From Diatrype stigma (Eukaryota; Ascomycota; Sordariomycetes; Xylariales; Diatrypaceae), in the NCBI GenBank assembly GCA_022225965.2, contig JAKJXP020000005.1:558001-622000 (forward strand): a stretch of 64,000 nt of DNA, written 5' to 3'. Below, one piece after another: positions 4,940 to 62,304 of this stretch; the first letter of the stretch is position 1, and the number at the start of each line of letters is the position of its first letter. The notes under the pieces are model-generated. The model was not told the DNA's origin and searched no databases. It saw only the letters and a program-made list of their open reading frames with translations. Made by a program: the position numbers and the translations under genes.

Positions 4940-7900
4940 TTACGATTTCGTCAGCGCGGTCGTCGTTGTGGCCTCTACCTCGCTCTCGAGGAGCATGAGC
5001 TTGCGGCACTCTTCCTCGACGGAGACCTCCTCGTCATCGCCATCGGCGCCGCCGGCACCGAACTGGCCCTCGACGCAGGCGGCCAGCATAAGCTTCTTGA
5101 CGCACGAGTTGTAGATAAGGCCCTCGACGGTGTCGCGGGTAATGAGGCGGACGACCTCGACGTCGCGGGTCTGGCCGATGCGGTGGGCGCGGTTCGACGC
5201 CTGCACGTCGTCCTGCGGGTTGTCCGACTGGTCGAACAGCACGATCTTGTTGGCCGCCGTCAGGTTCAGGCCCGTGCCGCCCGCCCCCGTCGTCAGCAGG
5301 AACACCGGGATCGTCGGGTCCGCGTTGAACTTCTGGATCTCCGGAAACCGGTCCGCCGTGTTGGTCTGGCCCGTCAGCTCGCAGTAGGGAATTCCCGCGA
5401 AGTACAGCGTGTCCCGGAGCACGTTGATGACCATTTCGAAACGGCTGAAGACAAGAACCCGGTCGCCCGTCTTCTGGTAGCCTCGGACGAGCTCGAGCAG
5501 CTTCTTCACCTTCGGGCTGTCTTCCCACGAGCGATCGGGAACGTCTAGGTGTCCAATGTATTTCTTGAACTCCTTGCACCACGTATGCAGTTCAAAGTCC
5601 GACTTTTCTTTGAAGTCGGCCAGGAGGAGGGCTTTGTGACGATCTTCTTTGCTCTGCACATAAAGCTCATCCTCGGAACAATGCTTCCACAGGAGATCTA
5701 CCATCTCCTTGACGCGCGAATCAGTGAAGTGACGGCGGAACAGCTGGTGGTGAATAGCAGCTTTCTTCAGCTGTATCCACGAGTTACCGCTCTTGATGGT
5801 CGATGCCGCTGCACCTCGCTTTGCGGTCTTTGGTTGATGTAGATACGTCCCTTTGATCTCGTTGTAGATCAGCTTCTGCTCTGGATGCATGTCGACGACT
5901 ATGTTGCGTTCGGTCTTCTTGGCAAGGTCAATAACGTCGTCTTTGCGACGCTGCAGGATGAATGGTGCCATGATCGTGCGGGCATTGCCGACTCGCTCCT
6001 TAGCTAGTGCCGCGAAGTTGTGGACATCCTTGCTGGGGACCTTGGCTTCGAAGATAGTCTGGAGTCGCTCGAAATCGTCGCCTTCGAAAAGATCCGGTTC
6101 GACAAAATGGAGGACGCTGAGGAGTTCCTTGAGGTTGTTCTGAACTGGTGTGCCGCTCAAAATGAGACGCCAATCAGATGGTACGCGCATCATCTTCTTG
6201 TATATGAGTGTCTTCGGATTCTTCAACTTGTGACCTTCGTCAAAGATGGCCGCATGCGGATTGAGTTCTTGTAGGAACTGAAGGTCCTCGTGCTGTCTCT
6301 CAACCTGTGTGTAAGTGGTGAGGACGACATGGTAGTTCTGGGCCTCTTCTGGATCTATGTTTCGTCGATCGGAACCGTAGTAAGGCATCACAGAGATCTC
6401 TGGTGCAAACCTCTCGAACTCCGACAACCAATTCTCGTAGGTACTCGGGGGCACTACAATTAGATTGGGCCAAGGGGCTCTTCCGTTGTCCTCCTCGTCT
6501 TCGTGGTCTGAGTCCTCTTCGTCTGGTGGCATGTAGGAGTCCACCAGTTGTGCGATGAAGGAAATGACTTGACATGTTTTGCCAAGACCCATATCATCTG
6601 CGAGGATGCCGCTGTATCCTTTGGAGTGTAGGAGGTTCATCCAGTTGAGGCCGAGTAGCTGGTACGACTTGAGCTGCACATCTTCAGCCATAAGCGAAGG
6701 CTTAGCGCTAATGGGCAGTTCGCTCAAATCGGAGTTGGGTTTCATGCATCCGTTCTTGTCCATTGGCCAGGTTGCCATGATTGATTGCAATGTCGCGCCT
6801 CGCTCTTCGCATTCTTTGATGACAGTTGCTGCAGCTTCGAAAGCCTGGAACCAGGCAGCCAGCTTTTCGACGATAACCAATCCAACCTCAGCGCGCGAGG
6901 ACTTCCTCTTCGACTTCGCCTTTTCTTTGCGTGAGATGCGTTCTGCCTGCGCAAGGGTGGCAAAGGGGCGGGCTTGAATCATGAGCTTGGCGTCCTCGGG
7001 GAGTCCAGTCATTCTGGAGAGTTCATCGACAGAACAGCTGTTAAGGTATTTTAGCACCTGTTGGCGCTCGCCCACCAGAAGTTCACCCGCATCCGAATTT
7101 TCATCTGAGGGTACGTCAATTGGAGGGGTGGGGGTTTCAATCTTGGGTGAAGGTGAAATCTTGCGCTTTCGTGAGTTGACAGCCGGGGTGGTGAGGAATT
7201 CGTCGTCAGAATCCGAGTCGATTGTGATTGGCTGGGGTTGCGCTTGAGCACGACGGCCTTGAACCAGTCTACGGCGCTTGACAGCAGGGCCAGCCTGCGG
7301 AGGAACGGTCGTAGTGATTGCCATCTTTGCGGTAGATTGAGAACTTGCAGGAGAGGCTGCTGGGGAGGTTGGGGGTGAAGTTGCTGAAGAAGAAACAGAA
7401 AATACAGGTGGGGGTGAAGGTGATTTGTTCCGGCGTCCTTGGATAAGGCGTCTGCGTGGTGGGGCAGGTTGTTCTGAAGTAGACGTGAGAGAATGAGGAT
7501 TGTTCTTGTTGTAGGCAAACCTATCCAAGTCGAGGAGGGAAGACTGTACTTTAGCTTTCTGCTGCGGTTCGGTTGGGCGGGAATTGCGGGATTGTGCAGT
7601 TGTTCCCGGGAAGCTTTTGTTACTTTTGTTGGAGGTGGGATCAATGTCATTGTCCTCTGTAAGGTCAACAGACTTGGAAAAAGAGCTCTTTGAAGAGGCG
7701 GGGGCTTGCGTTTTGTTCGATTTTCCAATTAGCGAGTCGACAGCTGTAGAGACCTGCCAGCCAACACCTTTCATCAATGTATCTCGACAAGCCCTGATTG
7801 TTATGCTAGGTTTGGACTTGGACACAATTCTGTACACGTCTTTCGTCAGGTGGCGTAGTCTAAGGTCATGGATCTCATTCAACGTGATGTCCTCCTTAGG

Positions 7901-8629
7901 CATTCGTGTGGACCCAAGTCCGGCTCCTGAAGCGGTATCTTTCTTCACGAACGAAGAAGGGCGAATATCACCGCGCATAGGCGCCTCATCCCCTGAGCTC
8001 TCCTGTTTCTTGTAGTCGTTGTTCAGATCATCGTCCGAGATGGTGAAGTACTTGGCCTTAGCTGCCGTGCTCGCCTTATTTGCGCCCGGCCGATTCGTGC
8101 TTGTTTGGTTCGTGCTTGGTGATCTGAAAGATGTCCCGGCCGGAGCCATGAGAGAAGCAATACTCCCTCGAGCCACAGGTTTACTGTTCGAGCTCGACAT
8201 GTCTGCCGATGCTGTCTTGGACTGCGATTTCGGCTGGAAAGGGGACGATGCAGGGACCTCGATAGCAGAGCTCGGCGTGCTTGGAGAGGATGGAGAGGAT
8301 TGGCGTAGGGTTGTTCGGTTTATGACCTGTGTTGGCTGTGTTCCTTTGGCTATAATTTGCGTAGGTTGTGTTCCCTTGCCAATGATCTGGGTAGGTTGTG
8401 TGCCTCTGCTGATGATCTGTGTCGGTTGCGTTCCCTTGCCGATGATCTGGGTTGGCTGTGTGAAGAAAGGAGAAGAGCATGGAATATCGTCTGAGGCAAG
8501 CTCATCTATATCGTCATCCTCGAGCTCGATTCGCTTCAGATCCCTGCTTTTTTGTTCCTGTCTCTTCATGCCGGGCGTTCCTGGAACCAAGAAGGTCCCT
8601 CCAGCCGCATTCATAGATGGCCGGGCCAT
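4940..8629 (-). CDS. FUN30: SNF2-family chromatin remodelling ATPase, Fun30/SMARCAD1 type
   Basis: A single uninterrupted frame of 1229 aa. The N-terminal ~650 residues are low-complexity and Ser/Pro-rich, with a stretch near 250-300 that resembles the CUE-like part of Fun30 proteins. Five 10-residue TQPTQII repeats lie at residues 57-106. The SNF2 ATPase follows: motif I DDMGLGKT near 677-684, motif II DEGH near 795, motif III SGTP near 823, and motif VI with RAHRIGQ near 1143. DEGH rather than DEAH and the split between the two RecA lobes match the Fun30/Fft3/SMARCAD1 branch. Known roles of that family are long-range DNA-end resection and heterochromatin maintenance in the nucleus; the role here is inferred. 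The divergent neighbour is VMA21, 1.25 kb away. Confidence 0.93.
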   Translation of the reverse strand: MARPSMNAAGGTFLVPGTPGMKRQEQKSRDLKRIELEDDDIDELASDDIPCSSPFFTQPTQIIGKGTQPTQIISRGTQPTQIIGKGTQPTQIIAKGTQPTQVINRTTLRQSSPSSPSTPSSAIEVPASSPFQPKSQSKTASADMSSSNSKPVARGSIASLMAPAGTSFRSPSTNQTSTNRPGANKASTAAKAKYFTISDDDLNNDYKKQESSGDEAPMRGDIRPSSFVKKDTASGAGLGSTRMPKEDITLNEIHDLRLRHLTKDVYRIVSKSKPSITIRACRDTLMKGVGWQVSTAVDSLIGKSNKTQAPASSKSSFSKSVDLTEDNDIDPTSNKSNKSFPGTTAQSRNSRPTEPQQKAKVQSSLLDLDRFAYNKNNPHSLTSTSEQPAPPRRRLIQGRRNKSPSPPPVFSVSSSATSPPTSPAASPASSQSTAKMAITTTVPPQAGPAVKRRRLVQGRRAQAQPQPITIDSDSDDEFLTTPAVNSRKRKISPSPKIETPTPPIDVPSDENSDAGELLVGERQQVLKYLNSCSVDELSRMTGLPEDAKLMIQARPFATLAQAERISRKEKAKSKRKSSRAEVGLVIVEKLAAWFQAFEAAATVIKECEERGATLQSIMATWPMDKNGCMKPNSDLSELPISAKPSLMAEDVQLKSYQLLGLNWMNLLHSKGYSGILADDMGLGKTCQVISFIAQLVDSYMPPDEEDSDHEDEEDNGRAPWPNLIVVPPSTYENWLSEFERFAPEISVMPYYGSDRRNIDPEEAQNYHVVLTTYTQVERQHEDLQFLQELNPHAAIFDEGHKLKNPKTLIYKKMMRVPSDWRLILSGTPVQNNLKELLSVLHFVEPDLFEGDDFERLQTIFEAKVPSKDVHNFAALAKERVGNARTIMAPFILQRRKDDVIDLAKKTERNIVVDMHPEQKLIYNEIKGTYLHQPKTAKRGAAASTIKSGNSWIQLKKAAIHHQLFRRHFTDSRVKEMVDLLWKHCSEDELYVQSKEDRHKALLLADFKEKSDFELHTWCKEFKKYIGHLDVPDRSWEDSPKVKKLLELVRGYQKTGDRVLVFSRFEMVINVLRDTLYFAGIPYCELTGQTNTADRFPEIQKFNADPTIPVFLLTTGAGGTGLNLTAANKIVLFDQSDNPQDDVQASNRAHRIGQTRDVEVVRLITRDTVEGLIYNSCVKKLMLAACVEGQFGAGGADGDDEEVSVEEECRKLMLLESEVEATTTTALTKS
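8312..8461 (-). repeat. 30-bp coding minisatellite within FUN30
   Basis: Five imperfect copies of a 30-bp unit encode TQPTQIIGKG-like decapeptides (residues 57-106). The copies differ mainly at third positions and in the GKG/SRG/AKG/NRT tail, so purifying selection on TQPTQ is plausible. Confidence 0.85.
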
Positions 8630-9884
8630 CTCAAAGGATAATTATACAACTGACTGAGCCAGGTCCTTGTCAATGGCGCGATATCCGTTGGAGGGTGAGC
8701 GCGGTATAGCAATGTTAGACTGGCTGGCTGGCTGGCTGAGGCGCGTCTTAAGATCACGGGAGTCACAAGAGAAGGATTGACACGGATTTGTCTTCAAGGT
8801 ATGCGGTTTCAAGAACAGTGTAAAAGCAGATGTATAAGATGATGGCTATCAAATTGACTGCCCAAGCCAAGGAGCACTTTGCCAACAAAGGCGCTGTAAA
8901 AATGACTCGCCCCACGTTGGCGTTGCTGCTGCTGTCGTCGTATCGTGAACTCGGCAGTAGGTGAAGTAAATTATGGGAGGGCTGGTAGTTGGTTGGTTGA
9001 CGTGAAGGGGTGAACGGGCGCCCGATAAACTTATTGGAGGTAAGATAAGCTTCCTTCCAGAATTCGGGCAGTGGGGCCGGACCGCATTCGCCATGCGCCA
9101 GTGCGCCCAGCGCATTTCACGCTCCTAAAACTTTCTGCACTTATCCCCATTCAGTAGGGACGCCACCAGAACGCGCCCGACTCAAGACACGAATTCAGGT
9201 GACCTAGCGGCCTACAGGGATGCAAGTTTAATTGGGTCAGATCAGCTTCAACGAGTCTTACATAATGACCCCAATACAGGGCATACCTTATTCGACTTTG
9301 ACTGTATGTAGGTTATATACCTACGAAGTGAAAGTGCGTGTCCAGTATATAGCAAGTGTAATAGTTCAAGTACTCCATACGGGTAGTTGCTTGAAGTATC
9401 TTCAAGTTCAACTCCAATTAATCGACTAGATACTTATTCAACCATAAATAACCAATCTGCACCTCACTGACTTGCTAAGGGCGATCAACTACTAGAAGAG
9501 AGGGGATTATTCATCTGTAAGACTCCGTCCATATCGATTTGGCCTCCCCGTAATGCTTTCCAAGACCCTGAATGGTGTTGTCTGCATTTTATGGTATCGT
9601 CATTGCCAGATCTGCACATGTACCTACTTATTAGGCCCCTGTCCCTTTGTTCATTATCTATCCGTTTCAACACATGTAATAATCTACAACATCTGCGTAC
9701 TTACCACGGGCCAAACACAATATCCAACCATCAAGCTCCGCTGCTAATGTTTGCTAGATAGAACCTCGCCAAAGAACAAGGCGATTCATTGAGCACCAAG
9801 CCACCTGACTCAATAGACTCTTCGTTCTACAAACAGCAACTACAGAGACTCAACGAGAAACTCAACGAAGTTTGACCATCAACC
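8630..9884. promoter_or_regulatory. shared upstream region of FUN30 and VMA21
   Basis: A divergent intergenic stretch of about 1.25 kb that must carry both promoters. I see no TATA box or other element I can assign with confidence. Short frames at 8849-9115 and 9232-9747 have no similarity I recognise. Confidence 0.5.
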
Positions 9885-28212: not shown

Positions 28213-30282
28213 ATGGATTCCGCTGCAGCGTAGGTTCCCTGATCAAGCAATCATCATCACCCCGCCATCTGCCCCGCTATTTCATCATGGAGCGCAACTT
28301 TCAAAGCTTCAGCTCCCAGAGCCCAGAGCTTCTAAGCCAGGTTGGAAGGATTTTTGCGACCGCGACAGCACTCTGTACCGGCTTCCTCTGTGTTTCTTTA
28401 TACCTTCCGGTCCTTCAATGGCACCATGTATCACACATCTTCTTGTATTCACACATTCACACATTCACACACGACACTATCGGCGCAGGTGAGCTAATTA
28501 TCATCATGCTGCAGTACGATGGAGCTGAAGGAAAACACGGTCATCGTGGTCCTTGGTGCCTCCGGTGATCTTGCGAAGAAGAAGACTGTAAGTCAACATA
28601 ATAACTATTGTTCTGATAAAGAGAACATGTCTAATTACTGACTCTGAATACAGTTCCCAGCCCTTTTTGGCCTTGTAAGTGCTACACTTGCCTCAATATG
28701 ACGCGGTTTACAGACACGACCAGTCGGAGCTAACAACCTCGGAAGTATCGCAATAAGTTCCTCCCGAAGGACATCAAGATTGTCGGATATGCGCGGACGA
28801 AGATGGACCATGCGGAATATCTGAAGCGGGTCAAATCCTTCATCAAGACACCCACCAAGGACCTCGAGAAGCAGCTTGAAGAGTTCTGCGCTGCCTGCAC
28901 CTATGTCTCGGGTCAATATGACCGCGATGATTCGTTCCAGGAGTTGAACCGGCACCTGGAGGAGCTGGAGCAGAGTCAGAGCGAGACGCACCGGCTATTT
29001 TACATGGCCCTACCACCCAGTGTCTTCACCATTGTCTCGCAACACCTCAAGAAGAACTGCTACCCGACTCGAGGAATTGCCCGCGTTATTGTAGGGAACC
29101 CATCCACCAGGCTCTCATGGGTAAGCCATGACAGGATGGTACAGATGCTAACTATGTCTTCTAGGTCGAGAAGCCTTTCGGCAAGGACCTGGCTAGCTCC
29201 CGGGAGCTGCAGAAGTCTCTGGAGCCCGACTGGAAGGAAGATGAGCTGTTCCGAATTGACCACTACCTCGGAAAGGAGATGGTCAAGAACATCCTGATCC
29301 TCCGCTTTGGTAACGAGTTCTTTGGTGCCACCTGGAACCGACACCACATAGACAACGTTCAGATCACATTCAAGGAACCCTTTGGAACGGAAGGACGAGG
29401 TGGATATTTCGACGAGTTTGGTATCATCCGAGATGTTATGCAGAACCATCTGCTCCAGGTTCTTACCCTCTTAACGATGGAGCGGCCAATCTCCTTCTCC
29501 GCCGAAGATATTCGCGACGAGAAAGTCCGAGTGCTCCGTGGCATGCCCGCCATTGAGCCCAAGAACGTCATCATCGGCCAGTATGGCAAATCGCTCGACG
29601 GTAGCAAGCCTTCATACAAGGAAGATGACACTGTTCCTAAGGATTCGCGCTGCCCCACGTTCTGCGCTCTTGTCGCATACATCAAGAATGAGCGGTGGGA
29701 TGGTGTTCCCTTCATAATGAAGGCCGGAAAGGCTCTGAACGAGCAGAAGACGGAAATTCGCATCCAATTCAAGGACGTCACCAGTGGAATCTTTAAGGAC
29801 ATTCCACGAAACGAGCTTGTCATGCGAATCCAACCGAACGAGAGTGTCTACATCAAGATGAACTCGAAGCTTCCAGGACTCAGCATGCAGACGGTCGTGA
29901 CTGAGCTTGATCTGACTTACAGAAGACGATTCTCAGACCTGAAAATTCCCGAGGCCTATGAATCGCTTATTCTGGATGCATTGAGAGGCGACCACTCCAA
30001 CTTTGTTAGAGATGACGAGCTTGACGCCAGTTGGAGAATCTTCACACCGCTACTGCACTATCTGGATGATAACAAGGAGATTGTCCCGATGGAATACCCA
30101 TATGGTACGTCGAACCCATTTGTCCCAACTGTCTCGGATTTCTGACAGCAACTAACATTTTCGTAGGCTCCCGTGGTCCGGCAGTCTTGGATGACTTTAC
30201 CTCGTCCTATGGCTACAAGTTCAGTGATGCTACGGGCTACCAGTGGCCTACCACGCCAGCTGTCGCCCCTAACAAGTTGTAA
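28213..30282 (+). CDS. ZWF1: glucose-6-phosphate 1-dehydrogenase (6 exons)
   Basis: Exons 28213-28229, 28515-28587, 28654-28674, 28746-29090, 29165-30104, 30167-30282 total 1512 nt, 503 aa, the usual fungal G6PD length. The coenzyme-binding GASGDLAKKK lies at residues 20-29, EKPFGKDL at 154-161, and the active-site RIDHYLGKE at 182-190 with the catalytic His185. The family blocks RNEFFGATWNR-like, GYFDEFGIIRDVMQNHL, KAGKAL, RIQPNE and WRIFTPLL follow. It converts glucose-6-phosphate and NADP+ to 6-phosphogluconolactone and NADPH, the first step of the pentose phosphate pathway, in the cytosol. Exon 1 encodes only five and two-thirds codons, and exon 3 is 21 nt. The last codons are followed by TTGTAAGT, so an alternative terminal splice to a TGA at about 30375 would change only the last residue. 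Confidence 0.96.
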
Positions 30283-31715
30283 GTCGGCAACGGGGAACCT
30301 TGATTATATATGTTAGACAACCTCAACGTTATGTTCCTCGAAAAGACTGGTACACTAATCCATTCATTTACAGCTGATAACGATATTTGTATCGGATTTT
30401 GCATCCCTCGGGAGCCTGCAGATGAAACACGAGACAGAGAGAAGGCCAGAACGGGGAGTTTGGACGCTTTAGGAGGAGAGGTTCACCCTTTGACTTAGAA
30501 GACGGTCTATTTTGCGGAGCTTACGAGATGAATACGGGATATATAGCTTTAAGACGTGCCACTGGATGATAGGAAACAATGGTACATGGTCTTCTCAACG
30601 ATGCTACTACCACATCTTGTGTCTGCTCATATAGCATATTAGGGATGTCTTTCAGGACGGTCGCTCCACTGATATGTGAGACTATGAACCAATTAAGGGG
30701 CCAGAGTTGTATCTCCGTCTTATGAATAGCCGACTCTTAGCTAGTTGTGGTTCATGTCTCCATAGGATATATGTATAGGCTAGTGCTGGCTCAAGAGATA
30801 ACCATCAGTTGAAAGGGATATGCGTGCGCAATAAGTGAATACCCAGCGATGGGTTCGATCAACACCATACCTAGGTACTGTGATTATTGTACAGATGGGG
30901 TCTAATATATGGCTATGCTATCCAGCCTTTATGTAATTTCTTCTCGTGAGAATAGCATATAAGCCAAAGTGGACTCGAAACTTTTGAGAAACTGTGTAGT
31001 TGTTAAGTCGATTGACACTGTCTATATACCTTGTAACACCCTTGACAATGGCTCGTTCCTTGGCACAGAAAACCCCAGCAGTGAGAGGTTCAATAGCTTT
31101 TCATACGAGATACCAGGCCGAAGATCGAAAGCAACAATGGCATGTAAGTACCTAGCCGCCCTTGATTGCACTCTTCTGGATGAGTAGTCACGGTCAACAC
31201 CGCGCGATTCATTAAATCCGCCGAGTCACGATAACTGGACTGCGGCAACTTTTTACGCCCGCCCCGCGGCCCCGGAACCACTACGATGGGATTCTTGTTA
31301 CTAACATCGTGACGTAATAAGGCACGGAACGCCGCTACAGAGTATGAACGCGTGGAAACGCTGCAAAACCGTGGCATGCGATCTGTTCTTTGACAGGAAG
31401 AATACCATTTCGTAACAAGCCAACAAATTCGGTAGTAAGTATTGGTATCTACGACATATCCTTTACTGACTTCAACTCTTATTTTATTCCCCAACAATTC
31501 TTTCTCTTGACATTTCGACACGATCGAGGCAAGCCTTCATGGATTTTCAGACCCACTTCACTACCGCCAATCGGTGAGGTTGTAGGCCCGTAGGGTGACC
31601 CCGTCAGCCCGTCTTTCCGGGCAGGGTTTTCAACTCCGAGCCCCCCCTTTCCCCCTCCCCCTATTTACGTATCCTGCAACACGTGACGACGTGCAAGCCA
31701 AAACCCCCATCGTCC
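30283..31715. other. intergenic between ZWF1 and the phosphoesterase-ATPase fusion gene
   Basis: 3' flank of ZWF1 and promoter region of the next gene. A minus frame at 31090-31521 (143 codons) and a plus frame at 31390-31593 lack recognisable domains. An upstream non-coding or short coding exon of the fusion gene cannot be excluded. Confidence 0.45.
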
Positions 31716-34700
31716 ATGAGCAGGCAAGTGGGGGCCGCGACGGCCAAGATGGGGGGCCGCCTGAAGAAAGGCAAGCCCCTCTGGCTTCTGCTCAGCGACC
31801 TGCACTTCAAGTCGTACGACCTGGACCGGATCGTGCGGACGGCGAGCTGGATCGCGTCGTTGCCGGGCTCGGTCTCGGGCCCGGGGGGCTACGCGGGGGC
31901 GCGCGGGGTCGGGGCCGGGCGCGGCGCTGGGGCCGGGGGTCACACCATCACGCGCGCCGTCATCTGCGGCGATCTGCTCACGGCCCGCACCTCCCAACCG
32001 ACCCACGTACTGTCAGCCTGCTACCGCTTCCTCAACGACCTGGCCGCCGCCGTGCCCCACGTCAACATCCTGCTGGGCAACCACGACCTCGCCTACCGCC
32101 AGGACTACCAGACCTCCGCCCTCGAGGCCCTCGCCATGACCCGCCTCGCCCCCTACGTCACCCTCCACGCCGACATAGGCCGCCACGTCTGGGACGGCCG
32201 CCGCGTGCTCGTCATGCCCTTTCGCGAGGACCAGGGCCTGCTTGTCGATGCCGTGCGCGAGCTTGCCTTGGAGGGGGAGGACGGGTCTCATGCTGCTGCT
32301 ACCATCGGCTTCGGCCACATGGCCATCAACCGCGCCATCACGCAGAGGCACATCATCGACCCGAAGACCGGGGCGGCCGGGCTGCCCTCGCGGTACCCCG
32401 GCCTCACGGGCGCGGGCGGCTTCGCGCCGCTGGCGCGGACCTTCACGGGGCACTTCCACAGCCACCAGACGATCCTGCAAGCCGCGGGCCGGGAGGCGGG
32501 CGATCTGCGCGGGAGTATCACGTACGTCGGGGCGCCGCTGCAGCTGACCTGGGCGGACCTGCTCGACACCCAGCGCGGGGTCGTGCTGCTGGACCCCGAG
32601 ACCCTGGAGACCGAGCTGGTGCAGAACCCGCACGCCGTCGGCTACGTCACCGTCGAGGCGCAGGACGTGTTCGCGGACCAGGTGCCCGCGGCGCACGTCA
32701 GCGACAAACACGTCATGATCACGGGCAGGCTGTCGCGGTACAAATACATCTTGGCCAGGGAGCAGCTGGTCAAGCTGGGGGCGCGCAGCGTGCGGGACTG
32801 GAAGGCGTTCCAGCCGGAATGGCAGTTCGGGCCGAACCGTCTCGGCAAGACGATGCTTTCGGCTGATGTCCAGAACCTGCCGGGCCGGAATAGAGCGGGG
32901 GAGACGGGCCAGGAGGAAGCGGGACATGGTGGTGAGGGCACCGCTCTCGGCCTCTCCGAGTCGCCGGCCATCGAGCTGCCTGGATCGAGGGCTGAACAGA
33001 TAGAGCACAAGCCACTCGACCTGAGCGTGATCGTCGACGAATATGTGTCCTCCCTCACCCTCGGAGCTACCCTCGAGGAGAAACGGGAGGTCCTGGCCGT
33101 CGTAGGAAAGCGGCTCGTGGACATCGGGAGCCGCGTCCGCGACAAGACCAACCACACGGTGAAGTACCGAGACATGCTCGACCTCACCACGCCGGCCAGT
33201 CTGATCCCCTCGAACGACGCGCCGCACGCGGCCACGGCGACGAACATCTTCGAGTCGCAGCCCGTCGCCGTCGAGATCACGAACTTCCTGGGCGTGCAGG
33301 GCACGCTCCGGCTCGACTTCGAGCGGCACTTCCAGCCGGGGCTGAACTTCATCGTGGGCCACAACGGGGCCGGCAAGAGCACCGTGATCGAGGCCATCGT
33401 GTGGTGCCAGTTCGGGCAGTGCATCCGGGAGGGCCTGGGGGTCAACGACGTGGTCAACGACGCGGCGGGCAAGGACTGCAACGTCCGCCTGACCTTCGCC
33501 AACGGCTACGCCATCTCGCGGTCGCGCCGGCACGGCGAGTTCCAGAACCGCGTCTTCGTGGAGCGCGACGGCCAGCCCCAGCCGCAGTTCGAGGGCGCCA
33601 ACGCGCGGGTGACCCAGGCGTCCCTCAACGAGCTGCTCGGCGTCGACTTCGACACCTTCATCCGCACCATCCTGCTCGGCAACGAGAGCACCCGCAGCTT
33701 CCTGAGCGCCTCGCCCCTGCAGAAGCGCCAGCTGACCGAGACCGCCCTCGGCCTGGGCATCCTCGACGGCTGCGCCGAGGCCTGCAACGCCATGCTCGGC
33801 CAGGTGGACGGGGAGCTGGCCGACAAGCGGTCGCGCCTCAAAGAAGTCACGCACACCGTCGGGCACCTGCAAGGCCGCGTCGACCAGATGGAGCAGACGC
33901 TGGAACGGCTACGCAACGAGGCAGCCTCCCTTTCTACTGAGATGCAGCGCGAGGAACGGAAACACGTAGCATCTGTGAACAGGAAGGAGCTCAGAAGAAA
34001 GCAACTGGTGAAGACTCTGGAGACCGAGCAGCGCTTGCCGGATCTCGAACCCGAGCTTCTGGACCTGCAGAACGGCGTTTCTCAGGCCAAAGACGAGGTG
34101 GGCGAACTTGACGCCCTGGAAAAGCTCGCGCAGGCTCGGTTGTCTATTGACCGCGAGGGGTCCATTGTGAAGCAAGAGATAGCGGCTACCAGAACACAGA
34201 TCCATCATCTCGAGGAAGCACTCGAGCGTTTATTGGCAGAGAACAGCATATTGGAGGTTCCGACATCCGCTGTCGAAGAGGACGATTATTATTATAGTAG
34301 CAAAACTCAAGGGGAGAGAAGCAGTAGTGGTAGTAGCGGGCAAGACTTCGTGCTAGCCATCTCACGCGCTTTTCGAAAACTTTGGATCGAGGTCCTCAAG
34401 ATCGTGAGCCCGACAGCCCGGGAGAACTTCCGGAGAATCGCGTTCCAAATCGCGGAAACCAAACGGCTGTGGCGAGAGCACACCGACGCGATCGACACCC
34501 TCGCAAGAAGCGTCGACGAAACCCACGGCAAGGTAGCGATCACGAAGGACCGGGTCGCGAACTTCCCCCGCGACATCGCCCGCCAGCACGTCATCAGCGA
34601 GCGCGACGTCCACGCGGCCCTGCAGACCCTGCCCACCGTCGAGCAGGCGTCCGCCGTGCCCGCGCAGCTCGCGGCGGCGGCCGACGCGCTGGAGGCCCTG

Positions 34701-35855
34701 ACACAGCGGCACGGGTCGGTGCAGCGCGAGTCCGAGGCGCGGCAGCAGCGGCTCCTGCGCAAGCAGCGGGAGCTGGAGGCGCACGAGCGCGACCTGGAGG
34801 CGACGCGGCGGCGGTGGGAGGTGGCGCTCGACCGCTACCGGCTGATGCTGGCGGGCAAGGAGCGCGAGGCGGGCACGTACGGCGCGCACCTGGCGGCGGA
34901 CGCGGCGACGCTCGCGGACCTGCGGACGCAGGCGGGCGGGCTGGAGGCGGACGCGGCCCGCACGCACGGCCACCGCGAGGTGTTCGCGTTCTGGCAGGCC
35001 GCCTTCACGCGGCGGCAGGTGGCCGCGGCCAAGCCGACCTTCCGCCGCCACGTCATCGAGCGCCACCTCGGCGAGCTGAACAAGCTGCTCGGCCAGATCC
35101 TGCTGGTCATGTACCGCGACGCCCACTACGCGCGCAGCACGACGACGGGGACCATCGGGGCCCTGTTCCGGGAGGAGGACGACTACGATGAGGATGAGGA
35201 GGGAGGGGAAGACGGTGATGCTGTGCGCGACAGCGGGCTCGGTAAGAGGGAGTACGACGGGCCCGATGGGAAGAAGAAAAGCGGCGACAAGGGCCGCAAT
35301 ACCAATACCAATACCAAGAGCAAGAGCAAGAGCAAGAAAGCATCCGCTGCCGCAGCCCCCTCCTCTTCCCCCAAGTCGACGACCAAGACCACGACGACGA
35401 CGACCACCACCACATCCCCATCCAAGTCCACATCGGCCTCGTCCGTGCTCGACCCCTCCCTCTCCATCAACCCCGCCCTCGCGTACGCCAAGAAGAGCGG
35501 CGGCGAGCGCAAGCGCGTGGACCTGGCGCTCTTCTTCGCGCTGTTCATGATGGGCGAGGCGCGCAGCGCGCACATGGCGCGCTACATGCTCGTGGACGAG
35601 GCCTTCGACAGCCTGGACGAGGCCGGCCAGGCCTCGGTCCTGAAGTGGTGCCGCTGGATGACCGGCCGGCTGGCCTACGTCTTCGTCATCACCCACAGCC
35701 GGAACCTGGTGAGGCTCGCGGAGGCGGTCGAGGAGAGCGAGAAGAAAGGGGGGGAGGGCGAGGATGATGGCGAAGGTGGTGGTGGTGGTGGTGGCGGTGG
35801 GGCGAACGTGGTTACGGTGAAGGCGGGTGATAGGGGCACGGAGCTGGTGGTTTGA
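31716..35855 (+). CDS. Mre11/SbcD-like phosphoesterase fused to Rad50/SbcC-like ATPase
   Basis: One intronless frame; the first ATG gives 1379 aa (the frame stays open a few codons further, from a GTG at 31683). Residues ~22-360 carry all calcineurin-like phosphoesterase motifs: SDLH (D28, H30), GDLL (D86), GNHD (121-124), GHMA (H201) and TGHFHSH (H246, H248). A linker is followed by the ATPase head: Walker A GHNGAGKS at 548-555, a LLGNESTRSF-x-SASPLQKRQ block near the Q-loop/lobe junction, long heptad-rich arms (about 700-1120), signature KKSGGERKR (1259-1267), Walker B YMLVDEAFDSLD (1290-1301) and H-loop ITHS (1325-1328). No CxxC zinc hook is present in the arms. Separate Mre11 and Rad50 proteins of this kind process DNA ends; here both activities are predicted on one chain. 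The N-terminus is basic, so organelle import is possible but unproven. The gene is markedly GC-richer than its neighbours, which with the intronless structure allows horizontal origin. Confidence 0.88.
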   Translation: MSRQVGAATAKMGGRLKKGKPLWLLLSDLHFKSYDLDRIVRTASWIASLPGSVSGPGGYAGARGVGAGRGAGAGGHTITRAVICGDLLTARTSQPTHVLSACYRFLNDLAAAVPHVNILLGNHDLAYRQDYQTSALEALAMTRLAPYVTLHADIGRHVWDGRRVLVMPFREDQGLLVDAVRELALEGEDGSHAAATIGFGHMAINRAITQRHIIDPKTGAAGLPSRYPGLTGAGGFAPLARTFTGHFHSHQTILQAAGREAGDLRGSITYVGAPLQLTWADLLDTQRGVVLLDPETLETELVQNPHAVGYVTVEAQDVFADQVPAAHVSDKHVMITGRLSRYKYILAREQLVKLGARSVRDWKAFQPEWQFGPNRLGKTMLSADVQNLPGRNRAGETGQEEAGHGGEGTALGLSESPAIELPGSRAEQIEHKPLDLSVIVDEYVSSLTLGATLEEKREVLAVVGKRLVDIGSRVRDKTNHTVKYRDMLDLTTPASLIPSNDAPHAATATNIFESQPVAVEITNFLGVQGTLRLDFERHFQPGLNFIVGHNGAGKSTVIEAIVWCQFGQCIREGLGVNDVVNDAAGKDCNVRLTFANGYAISRSRRHGEFQNRVFVERDGQPQPQFEGANARVTQASLNELLGVDFDTFIRTILLGNESTRSFLSASPLQKRQLTETALGLGILDGCAEACNAMLGQVDGELADKRSRLKEVTHTVGHLQGRVDQMEQTLERLRNEAASLSTEMQREERKHVASVNRKELRRKQLVKTLETEQRLPDLEPELLDLQNGVSQAKDEVGELDALEKLAQARLSIDREGSIVKQEIAATRTQIHHLEEALERLLAENSILEVPTSAVEEDDYYYSSKTQGERSSSGSSGQDFVLAISRAFRKLWIEVLKIVSPTARENFRRIAFQIAETKRLWREHTDAIDTLARSVDETHGKVAITKDRVANFPRDIARQHVISERDVHAALQTLPTVEQASAVPAQLAAAADALEALTQRHGSVQRESEARQQRLLRKQRELEAHERDLEATRRRWEVALDRYRLMLAGKEREAGTYGAHLAADAATLADLRTQAGGLEADAARTHGHREVFAFWQAAFTRRQVAAAKPTFRRHVIERHLGELNKLLGQILLVMYRDAHYARSTTTGTIGALFREEDDYDEDEEGGEDGDAVRDSGLGKREYDGPDGKKKSGDKGRNTNTNTKSKSKSKKASAAAAPSSSPKSTTKTTTTTTTTTSPSKSTSASSVLDPSLSINPALAYAKKSGGERKRVDLALFFALFMMGEARSAHMARYMLVDEAFDSLDEAGQASVLKWCRWMTGRLAYVFVITHSRNLVRLAEAVEESEKKGGEGEDDGEGGGGGGGGGANVVTVKAGDRGTELVV

Positions 35856-50600: not shown

Positions 50601-52552
50601 TTGCCGTGCCCAGCAGCTCTGATGGCCGTGGTCGTGGTAGTGGGAGGGGGGGATGAGGGGGAAGGCATGGTATCAATATACACCTATCAACCCGTCCCCT
50701 CGAGGACTTAGGTTGCTCCCTCTAGACAGACAATCCAGGAGGAGCTTGCTGCTGAATCGCTAGCCCCTGAGTTTGAACGGGATAACATGCTCTATAATAG
50801 ATAATGTTTGTATTTTACCCTACATCTCGTCGCACATACGCGTGGGACTCGAGACGCAGTAGGTCCCGACTCCCCAGTTACGTCTGTCTGGGGGGAAGCA
50901 CGATGACCTGAGATGAACCTAAGATGGCAAGGTCTAATGGAAGCAAACAGGCACAGTGACACAGTGGCAGACAGGGCAGAGAGGCAGGCAGACAGGCAGG
51001 CGGGATAGGCAGACAGGATACGTCCACGGGTAACTACAACCTGGAAGTACAACACCAGGACCACCTGCACCGACGTCGGGATCTCCAGGCGCCAGAGGCC
51101 AGAGGCCAGAGGCCAGACACCAGACGCCAGACGCCAGATGTCAGACTCAGCTGGACCTCGTCGGGCAGAAATAACCTTGGAAATGGCGTGGCTCAAGCTT
51201 CCTGGGCTTCTTGCTCCGATCTGCGATGGATGCTGGGGAATTGGCTGCGACCTGATAGGCCGATCTCCGAAAGCTAGGACTCCATGCCCCACTCTTTCCC
51301 AGATGTCCAGGATGTGTCAATGGAAACAGCTCACACCGCAGTTTCCACTAACGAACTAGAAGCTTGTACGTAGTACTGCGTATGTATGTACATACTATAG
51401 TGGTAGTTCGTATGCACAAAAGGTTCATAAAGCCCATTAAAGTCCATGTGCGCTGCTGATATGCTGGAGCGCCGGAGGGGAAGTTTAGGTAATCCTTAGT
51501 GTGCTGTGTAAAAGGGCATTTCTACCCGTTTCCGTCTTGGAAATTCTGGTTCTCCATCTCTTCTACTTCTTTTCTCATCAGCCCCCAAGTCGTCCCGTCG
51601 CTCTAGACCAGAAGTTCAGCAGAGAGAGGTGTGATGACGATGACGAGGATGATGGAGACCTAAACTGGGTCATCGACGGCTAAGCCACTGAGCCGGTAAA
51701 AACCACAGCCACAGGCCGAAGACCCCCCAAACACCCCCGAATCATTTGAACCAGGGGGGGTTCGGCTCTCCTGCCTACTACCTGGACTACCTGCCTACGA
51801 CCTGCCTAAGAACTGGAAGAATTGGGTCTGGTTAGTCTCTTTACTGGAGTCCTTTATTGCTAGTGCTGCTGCTCTGCTGCCCATCCCGACTGCCTGATCG
51901 TCTTGCGTAGGCTCTGCCTGCTGAGTCGCTGAGTCGCTGGCAGCTTTGGTTGGTAGGTTTTACCTTTCACCCCCTGCCTGACCCTTGGCCATCTTCAACA
52001 ATCATCGCGAAGAAATTTCGGGTACGTGTCAAATTACCATCCAATTTGACACTATTCAAGCTTATCTTCCTACCTTTCTCTTTGCACAACACACTCCTTG
52101 TGTTACTTTTCGTGGTTACAAACTTTATCTACATTTGGCAGATTCGTCGCTCACTCTATTCCACTATTAGGAATTTCTCGAACGTTGAAAATACATTGGC
52201 AATCGCAGCAAGACGCCTGACAAAGACTAGAGTTCGTCGCACCTGTAAGTTTCAAGATACCCGTTTCATTAGCCCCTTAATCCGCGTTTTTGCTATGGTC
52301 ACGCCCGAATCTTGAAAGAAGCTTCAATATTCAATACAACAACGTTCACACCTTTTGGGCTTTCTCCGACCCTTTGTTGCTAGGCCAAAACTAACATATT
52401 TCCGACTCCTGACAGATTTCTACATAAATTGATTGCCTTGCACAGCCAAACAATTCTCTTCATCAAATCGATCGCTTCTGCGTTTCCTGACTTCACGTCC
52501 GCCCCAAACCTCCAGTCTTCGAACTTCCGATACCTCGCCCCCCACACGCGAC
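50601..52552. other. intergenic with minisatellite-like tracts; promoter and leader of PRA1 gene
   Basis: It contains an aggcaggcagac-type repeat near 50978-51018 and a ggccaga/cgccaga tandem tract at about 51089-51143. The minus frame 50792-51292 is created by these repeats. A probable leader intron of the PRA1 gene (52245-52415: GTAAGT donor, ctaac branch, gacag acceptor) lies at the right end. Confidence 0.5.
51089..51143. repeat. ggccaga/cgccaga short tandem repeat
   Basis: Imperfect tandem copies of a 7-8 bp unit (ggccaga, caccaga, cgccaga) are directly visible. Confidence 0.7.
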
Positions 52553-53086
52553 ATGATGTCTCGTATTCAAATTCCTCTCGACGTCTTGACGTCGCGTCTG
52601 AACATCTCGGACCGCTTTGCCGGTTTCCGGAACACATCGCTATCCAGCCGATTTGCCAACCTGCGACCGGTCGGCGAGTTTTTCGACTTCAAGCGCCTAT
52701 CTAAACCCGAGAACTTCGCCGAGGTTCAGTCGCGTGTCAACTACAACCTGAGCACCTTCTCGAGCAACTATGCTCTCGTCTTCGTCCTCCTGAGCGTCTA
52801 CGCTCTCATCACGAATACGCTCCTTCTGTTCGATATCGTCTTTCTCGGTGCTGGGCTGTGGATTCTTGGTCGGCTCAACGGCCAGGACCTCACTATCGGC
52901 AATTTCCACGCCACGTCATCCCAGCTTTACAGCGGGCTGCTCGTCACCTGTGGTCTTCTATTTATCATTGCATCACCATTCAGCACTGTCCTTTGGCTGA
53001 TTGGTGCTAGCGGCGTTGTCATCATCGGCCACGCTGCTTTTATGGACAAGCCTATCGATGAGGCTTTTTCCGGGGAGGCGGTCTAG
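52553..53086 (+). CDS. PRA1/Yip3-family prenylated Rab acceptor
   Basis: From the ATG at 52553 the frame gives 177 aa. The same frame opens earlier at 52433, but that part looks like leader. It carries the PRA1 layout: a SRVNYNLSTFSSNYALVFVLL segment (about 62-82) leading into the first hydrophobic hairpin with the ILGRLNG turn, then a second hairpin pair (LLVTCGLLFIIAS, TVLWLIGASGVVIIGHAAF), and a short tail. PRA1 proteins bind prenylated Rab GTPases and work in ER-Golgi membrane traffic. The tandem ATG-ATG makes the first residue uncertain by one. The leader probably contains an intron (52245-52415). The next gene starts only 65 nt after the stop, on the same strand. Confidence 0.9.
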   Translation: MMSRIQIPLDVLTSRLNISDRFAGFRNTSLSSRFANLRPVGEFFDFKRLSKPENFAEVQSRVNYNLSTFSSNYALVFVLLSVYALITNTLLLFDIVFLGAGLWILGRLNGQDLTIGNFHATSSQLYSGLLVTCGLLFIIASPFSTVLWLIGASGVVIIGHAAFMDKPIDEAFSGEAV

Positions 53087-60946: not shown

Positions 60947-62304
60947 ATGTCGAAGCCTCTAGAGATAGAATCTACTGAGCAGTTCAGCAACTTGCTGAAG
61001 AGCTCGCGCATTGTTGTCGCCGACTGTAAGTTGCCTCTTGGCTCCCCGTGCGTGCAAATGTACCCCGCCATCGTCACTCCCGCCCTATCCAGTGCGACGC
61101 GACGCGCTCTGCTACCAAAGCTTGGGGGGCCGCAGGAGCCCTTGGATGACGATGGTCCAAATCATACTATCCTTTATTCGCCCAGTATTCACGACTTTGC
61201 AAACCTTGTCGGGCCTGTATCCTCTGTTCTGGCAATTGCTGGATGCAGGTTCTCACACCCCAGGTTGGACCTGCGGCATGGACTAGACTAACCAGCTCTC
61301 TACAGTTTATGCCGACTGGTGCGGGCCATGCAAGACGATCGCACCGTTCTACGAGCAGCTCTCGCAAAGGCTATCACTGCCCAATCTCGCCACTTTCGTC
61401 AAGATCAATACCGAATCTCCAGCCGGCAAGCGGCTTGCTCAAGAATATGGCATCGCTGCTCTACCCACCTTCATCATCTTCCGTGACAGCAATATTGTCG
61501 AGAAGGTCAAGGGCGGCGACCCGAAGTCCCTGAAGGCTGCTGTCGAGAAGCTCAGCAGCGATATCGAGAACGCTGGTGCAGGCGGTTCTGCCAGTGCTAG
61601 TGGCAGCGGCAGTGGAACTACCGGTGGCATCGCCTGGAGAGGCGCCGACTTGCCTAGGGGCTATACAGACATATCAGATACCGTCGATGTTCGTGGCTTG
61701 GAGCTGCTGAATGCCGATACCGACTTCTCCGTCCGGACGCTCTTGAGCAAGAACAAGCCCAGTGCCCTGGAGAAGGGCAAGAGTACGAGTACGGAGAAGG
61801 ACTGGGTGGAGAGCGACACGGATGAGCAACTGATGCTTTACACCCCTTTCAACTCCGCCGTGAAACTCCACACCTTGCAGGTACGCAGCTTACATTCCAT
61901 GTATCCAAAATGGTGCCATCGAATAAAAACTAATAGGTTAATAGATCACCTCTCTACCACCCACCGAAGCCGAGGACGAGGATGAGGATGAAGTACCCAT
62001 GAGACCGCAGACGATCAAGCTCTACACCAACCGGCCACACAACCTTGGATTCGACGAGGCTGAAGACATCGTGCCCACCCAAGAGATCGAGATTGCCGAG
62101 AGCGACTGGAACGCCAACGGCACCGCCACCCTCAACCTGCGGTTCGTGCGCTTCCAGAACATTACGAGCGTCGTGGTGTTCGTGGTGGACGGCGACGGCG
62201 ATGGCGAGAAGGTGCGCATCGATCGGATCCGGTTCATCGGGGAATCCGGCGAGAAGCGGGAGATGGGCAAGCTGGAGAAAATCGGCGACGAGCCTGGCGA
62301 GTAG
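60947..62304 (+). CDS. TXL1: thioredoxin-like protein with PITH domain (TXNL1/Txl1 type), 3 exons
   Basis: Exons 60947-61025, 61306-61880, 61945-62304 total 1014 nt, 337 aa. The N-terminal thioredoxin fold shows FYADWCGPCK (active-site CGPC about residues 32-35), FVKINTE and the cis-Pro loop ALPTFIIF. A Gly/Ser-rich linker (GAGGSASASGSGSGTTGG) joins it to a PITH domain with LLNAD, DEQLMLYTPFNSAVKLHTLQ, the TIKLYTNRPHNLGFDEAED block and FQNITSVVVFV. This domain order is that of TXNL1, a thioredoxin that sits on the 26S proteasome regulatory particle in yeast and mammals. Introns have GTAAGT and GTACGC donors and tacag/atag acceptors. Confidence 0.94.

Follow-up and report, generated by a model that had tools for sequence, protein, structure and literature searches.

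Proteins that join an Mre11 (SbcD) nuclease to a Rad50 (SbcC) ATPase in one chain are known from the survey of Yoshida, Claverie and Ogata (2011; PMC3175470), which describes 13 such fusions from viruses, bacteria and eukaryotes, none of them fungal. Among them are Mimivirus R555 and proteins of Physcomitrella, Dictyostelium, Polysphondylium, Phaeodactylum and Micromonas, as well as fusions from Clostridium kluyveri plasmids and Bacillus phage 0305phi8-36; all 13 fall outside the three canonical clades, and a viral source is favoured. Here we analyse a 64,000-nucleotide stretch of the Diatrype stigma genome (assembly GCA_022225965.2, contig JAKJXP020000005.1, positions 558,001 to 622,000 of the forward strand; hereafter the window), in which one gene encodes a fungal fusion that is very probably a single-chain Mre11-Rad50-type nuclease, of the phage gp47-gp46 type, beside the canonical MRN complex. 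Neither a fungal Mre11/Rad50 fusion nor a hookless apex appeared in the titles and abstract openings covered by our literature search (supplements and subscription papers lay outside it), and, within the reach of that search, the hookless fungal version and its substitute apex look new. The first-pass annotation of this DNA, which had proposed an undescribed system, is partly supported: such fusions were already published in 2011 and databases contain fungal examples, so the fungal fusion is not undescribed as a kind, and a one-chain Mre11/Rad50 protein is ordinary in kind.

Results

The fusion gene and its domains

In the window translation, 31716-35855 (+) gives 1379 amino acids (aa) with one stop at the end, and both the nuclease and the ATPase halves lie in this uninterrupted frame, within an open stretch of 1418 codons from stop to stop. 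The fused nuclease-ATPase read by the first-pass annotation is thus borne out, each motif that it named lying where it had been placed, and we infer one transcript across both halves. The gene is single copy in the D. stigma genome; a second copy was ruled out, the genome search giving one match only. The features are as follows.

31716..35855 (+): complete fused gene, 1379 codons plus stop in one open frame; 126 collinear homologues
31782..32801 (+): Mre11/SbcD/gp47-type nuclease and cap domain, residues ~23-362
31797..31805 (+): DxH motif (D28, H30; DLH 28-30), from motif position and a 27-member alignment
31968..31973 (+): GD motif (85-86, D86); D86 invariant in the 27-member alignment
32076..32087 (+): GNHD motif (121-124), in 127/127 proteins
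32316..32318 (+): catalytic-type His201 (in GFGHMAI), invariant in the 27-member alignment
32448..32459 (+): GHFH motif (245-248), in 124/127 proteins
33021..33140 (+): helical pair, residues ~436-475, proposed by position as the equivalent of the Mre11 helix-loop-helix
33258..33803 (+): ATPase N-lobe, residues ~515-696; AAA_23, and phrog_77 at 6.1e-53
33357..33380 (+): Walker A GHNGAGKS (548-555), from motif position; in 127/127 proteins
33804..34265 (+): ascending coiled-coil arm; AlphaFold2 (AF2) helices equivalent to residues 681-773 and 778-845
34341..34406 (+): predicted apical amphipathic helix, residues 876-897, at the zinc-hook site; AF2, local pLDDT (predicted local distance difference test) ~50-60
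34410..34988 (+): descending coiled-coil arm; AF2 model
34989..35750 (+): ATPase C-lobe, residues ~1092-1345, with a long low-complexity insert; SbcC_Walker_B and alignment
35496..35507 (+): ABC signature SGGE (1261-1264; SGGER from 1261)
35583..35600 (+): Walker B YMLVDE (1290-1295; within YMLVDEAF)
35694..35696 (+): H-loop histidine 1327 (THS from 1326), from position; invariant in the 27-member alignment

The motif names follow those of SbcCD and Mre11-Rad50. The SMC-type ATPase head is split by ~390 residues of coil, and Pfam matches on the protein are AAA_23 (7.9e-17), SMC_N (2.2e-15) and SbcC_Walker_B (2.7e-6); in PHROG, the SbcC-like phrog_77 is joined by the SbcD-like phrog_100 (2.6e-22). 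The Pfam Metallophos family (PF00149) has precomputed matches in some of the fusion homologues. The coil and apex were modelled with AF2 on the window fragment 33753-35015. The helix-loop-helix of Mre11 binds the base of the Rad50 coil; its proposed counterpart at ~436-475 was placed by eye, through the alignment, from helices 374-384 and 392-410 in a model of the relative P0091, where fold matches reach the cap, to about residue 310, and the helix pair 374-410 is predicted with no known-domain match. Among the 27 aligned proteins, a low-complexity C-lobe insert of similar kind occurs in P0003 alone. The frame has a GC content of 67% and a third-position GC (GC3) of 0.878, with sharp edges (1 kb flanks at 0.475 and 0.494), compared with a GC3 of 0.55-0.64 in seven other genes or exons of the same genome.

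A conserved family in filamentous ascomycetes

The fusion is conserved across many ascomycetes and is not a local accident. The same nuclease-ATPase arrangement is carried by 126 database relatives, and the named organisms among the best 120 of the 231 matches to the whole protein are filamentous ascomycetes, which we take to be Sordariomycetes (Daldinia, Annulohypoxylon, Xylaria, Fusarium, Trichoderma, Chaetomium, Cytospora and others) except for Phyllosticta. Since the protein searches list the best 120 of 231 and the best 120 of 410 matches, we make no claim of absence from other fungal classes. Database names of the fungal fusions include 'Rad50/SbcC-type AAA domain-containing', 'Nuclease SbcCD subunit C' and 'gp46 recombination endonuclease subunit'.

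A scan for six motifs covered a family set of 127, including the D. stigma protein (P0001) and seven members from an additional search. It found DxH in 125, GNHD in 127, GHxH in 124, Walker A in 127, the signature in 126 and Walker B in 121, with all six together in 116. The 11 that fall short lack the Walker B pattern alone (six), the GHxH pattern alone (two), the signature pattern only (P0243), or the first motif only, with N for D (P0075); the last, P0033, is N-terminally incomplete and lacks the DxH and GHxH patterns. In the 27-member alignment, H30, D86, N122, H123, D124, H201, H246 and H248 of the nuclease are invariant and D28 nearly so; in the ATPase, G548, N550, G551, G553, K554, S1261, G1263, E1264, D1294, E1295 and H1327 are invariant. 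Several Fusarium entries (P0137, P0138, P0143 and similar) are gene pieces that may reflect decay, contig ends or annotation.

No phage or plasmid record in any collection matched in one place covering 80% of the query, with the D. stigma protein or with P0073 as query; nevertheless, the viral fold library does contain proteins of fusion-like length. The bacterial and archaeal species genomes gave one weak ATPase match, which says little because that scan was based on two short peptide patterns.

A coil apex without the zinc hook

The eight cysteines of the D. stigma fusion (84, 102, 564, 569, 588, 686, 690 and 1312) form no CxxC pattern, in agreement with the missing hook of the first-pass annotation. 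Across the family, the motif scan found CxxC downstream of Walker A in 0/127 proteins, the sole CxxC (P0064) sitting in a nuclease half. A mid-protein CxxC is present in all 18 comparators, hand-picked from fetched loci and matches (15 phage and bacterial SbcC/gp46 proteins and three metagenomic fusions). The comparator scan skipped the first and last 150 residues; the CELC of the D. stigma RAD50 exon, which is not counted among the 18, lies near the exon end and hence went unreported. A search of the D. stigma genome with the Pfam Rad50_zn_hook model likewise gave no match, although that CELC is present, and the model was therefore not used as evidence.

Where the hook would lie, at mid-coil, 103 of 111 proteins by pattern and 54 of 59 by alignment have the 19-residue segment with the highest hydrophobicity in the coil, against a mean of 18.6 and a maximum of 29 in 200 within-protein shuffles; both counts are inflated by related sequences. 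The pattern measure took 111 of the 129 proteins of 1000-1600 aa (the boundary pattern failed in the 18 dropped), and the alignment measure covers 59 of the 127 family proteins. On average, 4.2 of 31 residues are basic and 1.5 acidic in the 54 central stretches. Exceptions to the central maximum, such as P0035 and P0112, may be real.

Kinship of the two halves

Sequence profiles and trees ally the nuclease half with gp47 of T4-type phages and not with bacterial SbcD. A fungal nuclease profile scores three T4-type gp47 proteins at 34-49 bits, E. coli SbcD at 19.6 and the partial MRE11 exon of D. stigma at -2, while a profile of the fungal N-lobe gives four phage gp46-type proteins 72-101 bits, three bacterial SbcC 42-57 and the D. 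stigma RAD50 exon 18. One exon each of MRE11 and RAD50 was scored; missing sequence accounts in part for their low scores, and the RAD50 C-lobe score is void.

The nuclease tree of 45 rows, rooted on three SbcD rows, unites the fungal proteins, the metagenomic sequence P0153 and three metagenomic fusions in a single clade (100/98), whose sister group is T4-type gp47 with its phage-contig kin (96/87); P0153 is sister to the fungal clade (100/99). A quicker tree of 51 rows agrees; it held 15 fungal fusions and 17 sequences hand-picked from the 83 SbcD/gp47-like P0158-P0240, and two long-branch rows and four near-duplicates were removed from it to give the 45. The nuclease half lies outside the canonical clades, as represented by the three SbcD rows and, in the 51-row tree only, one long-branch MRE11 exon. 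In the ATPase tree the fungi (99) and the metagenomic fusions (95) come out apart, each as a group of its own. P0153, a nuclease fragment from a metagenome, shares 42% identity with P0073 across 70% of the query, and its N-terminal extension of 67 residues contains no D or E and is rich in S, H, R, K and A.

Canonical genes and neighbourhood

Canonical MRE11 is found on contig C7 (Metallophos and Mre11_DNA_bind matches) and canonical RAD50 on contig C83, its CELC hook visible in the exon, so that the expectation of normal counterparts elsewhere in the genome was confirmed. The DUF3435 domain is linked to Starships; its sole match lies on contig C9, and transposon or Starship cargo at the fusion locus was rejected.

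Of the neighbouring frames, 20 were scanned with Pfam, and six scored above the model cut-off, DUF2406 among them. The neighbours of the fusion are all ordinary: G6PD exons (28734-30142), PRA1 (52433-53083) and a thioredoxin-PITH gene (61287-61982). An SNF2-type helicase frame lies at 4943-8641 on the minus strand, and a 92-base tRNA-Glu (ttc) at 1793-1884, in the AT-richer left end. Upstream of the fusion, a short ATG frame, MARSLAQKTPAVRGSIAFHTRYQAEDRKQQWH, at 31048-31143, resembles a mitochondrial presequence and ends at a GTAAGT donor; a putative CAG acceptor at 31605-31607 would join it in phase with the fusion across an intron of ~464 bases.

Discussion

The fusion protein is most likely an active homodimeric nuclease of DNA ends and hairpins beside MRN, as suggested by its motifs. 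Intact SbcCD/Mre11-Rad50 motifs imply activity, and because they are intact here, we infer ATP-gated end and hairpin nuclease chemistry. Two chains would pair via their heads and nuclease domains, in the manner of SbcCD and Mre11-Rad50, with the covalent link setting a 1:1 stoichiometry of nuclease to ATPase. On ATP binding the heads would close over the nuclease sites, and hydrolysis would open them for the cutting of DNA ends, hairpins or protein-blocked ends. With the zinc hook gone, the hydrophobic, basic helix at the coil tip would take over the contact, and the protein would act beside nuclear MRN on its own substrate or in its own compartment.

That apex helix is most likely a new tip-to-tip (or tip-to-membrane) contact replacing the hook. 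Yeast RAD50 is functional with a MukB hinge in place of its hook (PMC6969161), which makes another dimerising tip plausible in the fungal fusion; membrane binding would be the bolder reading. The boldest version, in which a phage-type gp47-gp46 nuclease was fused and adopted by eukaryotes and the ascomycete hook became a basic amphipathic membrane-docking helix, giving a membrane-tethered Mre11-Rad50, strikes us as improbable; it would dock on the mitochondrial inner membrane or the nuclear envelope and process DNA ends while anchored.

Several observations weigh against the proposal of a single-chain, phage-type nuclease with a replacement apex. Pfam Metallophos has no match in the D. stigma copy at E<=1, and a Gly/Ala-rich insert in its nuclease domain (window 31872-31940) is absent from the other 26 aligned relatives. 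Staphylococcus phage gp47 scores 18.4 bits with the fungal nuclease profile, below the value for E. coli SbcD, and the ATPase tree joins gp46 to SbcC (87) and not to the fusions, on very long branches; as that tree is long-branched throughout, the ATPase half neither confirms nor excludes a phage-type origin. At the apex, the central hydrophobic maximum is absent in 5 of the 59 aligned members, mean hydropathy exceeds 1.6 in just 10 of 111, and the apical helix is modelled with low confidence.

Mitochondrial DNA is our tentative first guess at the substrate. Import into mitochondria, for a role like that of T4 gp46/47 on mitochondrial DNA (degrading broken DNA and supplying recombination-dependent replication with 3' ends), is quite possible, if short of probable, and the apical helix may hold such a protein on the inner membrane. 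It would agree with the D/E-free extension of P0153, the sister of the fungal clade, with a basic and amphipathic apex and with a nuclease akin to phage gp47. Of 120 N-termini, 117 could be measured, and 110 of these have no acidic residue ahead of the first strand, but these stretches have a median of just 8 residues, which argues against an ordinary mitochondrial presequence, and short acid-free stretches are weak evidence.

A nuclear backup, that is, a second end-processing nuclease that assists or replaces MRN at hairpins or protein-blocked ends, is possible but somewhat doubtful. Motifs and fold give the same chemistry as MRN, and the C-lobe insert of P0001 and P0003 has basic clusters that could be nuclear signals; however, these clusters are absent from the other 25 alignment rows, and the genome already holds canonical MRE11 and RAD50. 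It is unlikely that the fusion is a conflict gene, a nuclease against invading plasmids, transposons or DNA viruses that is kept or lost as accessory cargo. Fusions are known in phages, giant viruses and plasmids (PMC3175470); short gene pieces come from several Fusarium species, and there are two long Discula destructiva proteins (P0036 and P0247), possibly not from one assembly. The D. stigma gene, however, occurs once, close to G6PD exons, with the sole DUF3435 match of the genome on a different contig, and the fusion is common to many Sordariomycetes; the gene pieces may be annotation or contig ends. Finally, an assembly or annotation artefact joining two genes is extremely improbable: the sharp difference in GC from the flanks is the only support found, GC is high in both halves, does not jump at the linker and dips in the coil only, and a chimera is refuted by the same arrangement in the 126 collinear homologues from many contigs.

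If active, the single-chain nuclease would be a natural Mre11-Rad50 with inseparable parts, and an extensive experiment of nature in zinc-hook loss that lets the role of the hook be asked directly. It would also bear on the natural replacement of the hook by another tip, compared with the engineered MukB hinge (PMC6969161), and on whether a recombination nuclease of phage type persists in fungi next to MRN, perhaps serving organelle DNA.

Comparison with known systems

Canonical MRE11-RAD50 (MRN/MRX) shares the fold and motifs of both halves but is encoded by two genes and carries a zinc hook, whereas the fusion is one hookless chain. The T4-type gp47 proteins are the top-scoring nuclease references and sister to the fusion clade in the nuclease tree, and T4-type phages have genes 47 and 46 in the same order as the halves of the fusion; gp47 and gp46 are nevertheless two proteins, gp46 with a CxxC hook. 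The metagenomic fusions P0248, P0249 and P0250 (982-1042 aa) are single chains in the same nuclease clade as the fungi, but they retain CPGC, CPSC and CPYC, respectively, and their predicted proteins are N-terminally incomplete.

RAD50 with a MukB hinge (PMC6969161) is engineered and has a folded hinge, whereas the fungal apex is a natural and, by prediction, short helix. The fusions of PMC3175470 are compared here by description from the accessible part of that report: like the fungal protein, they have the nuclease first and the ATPase second in one chain, are additional to canonical proteins in nearly all cellular hosts, and lie outside the canonical clades (for the fungal protein, the nuclease half). 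Hook loss is not a topic in that part of the report, and the fungal family differs in having no CxxC and in its hydrophobic, basic apex.

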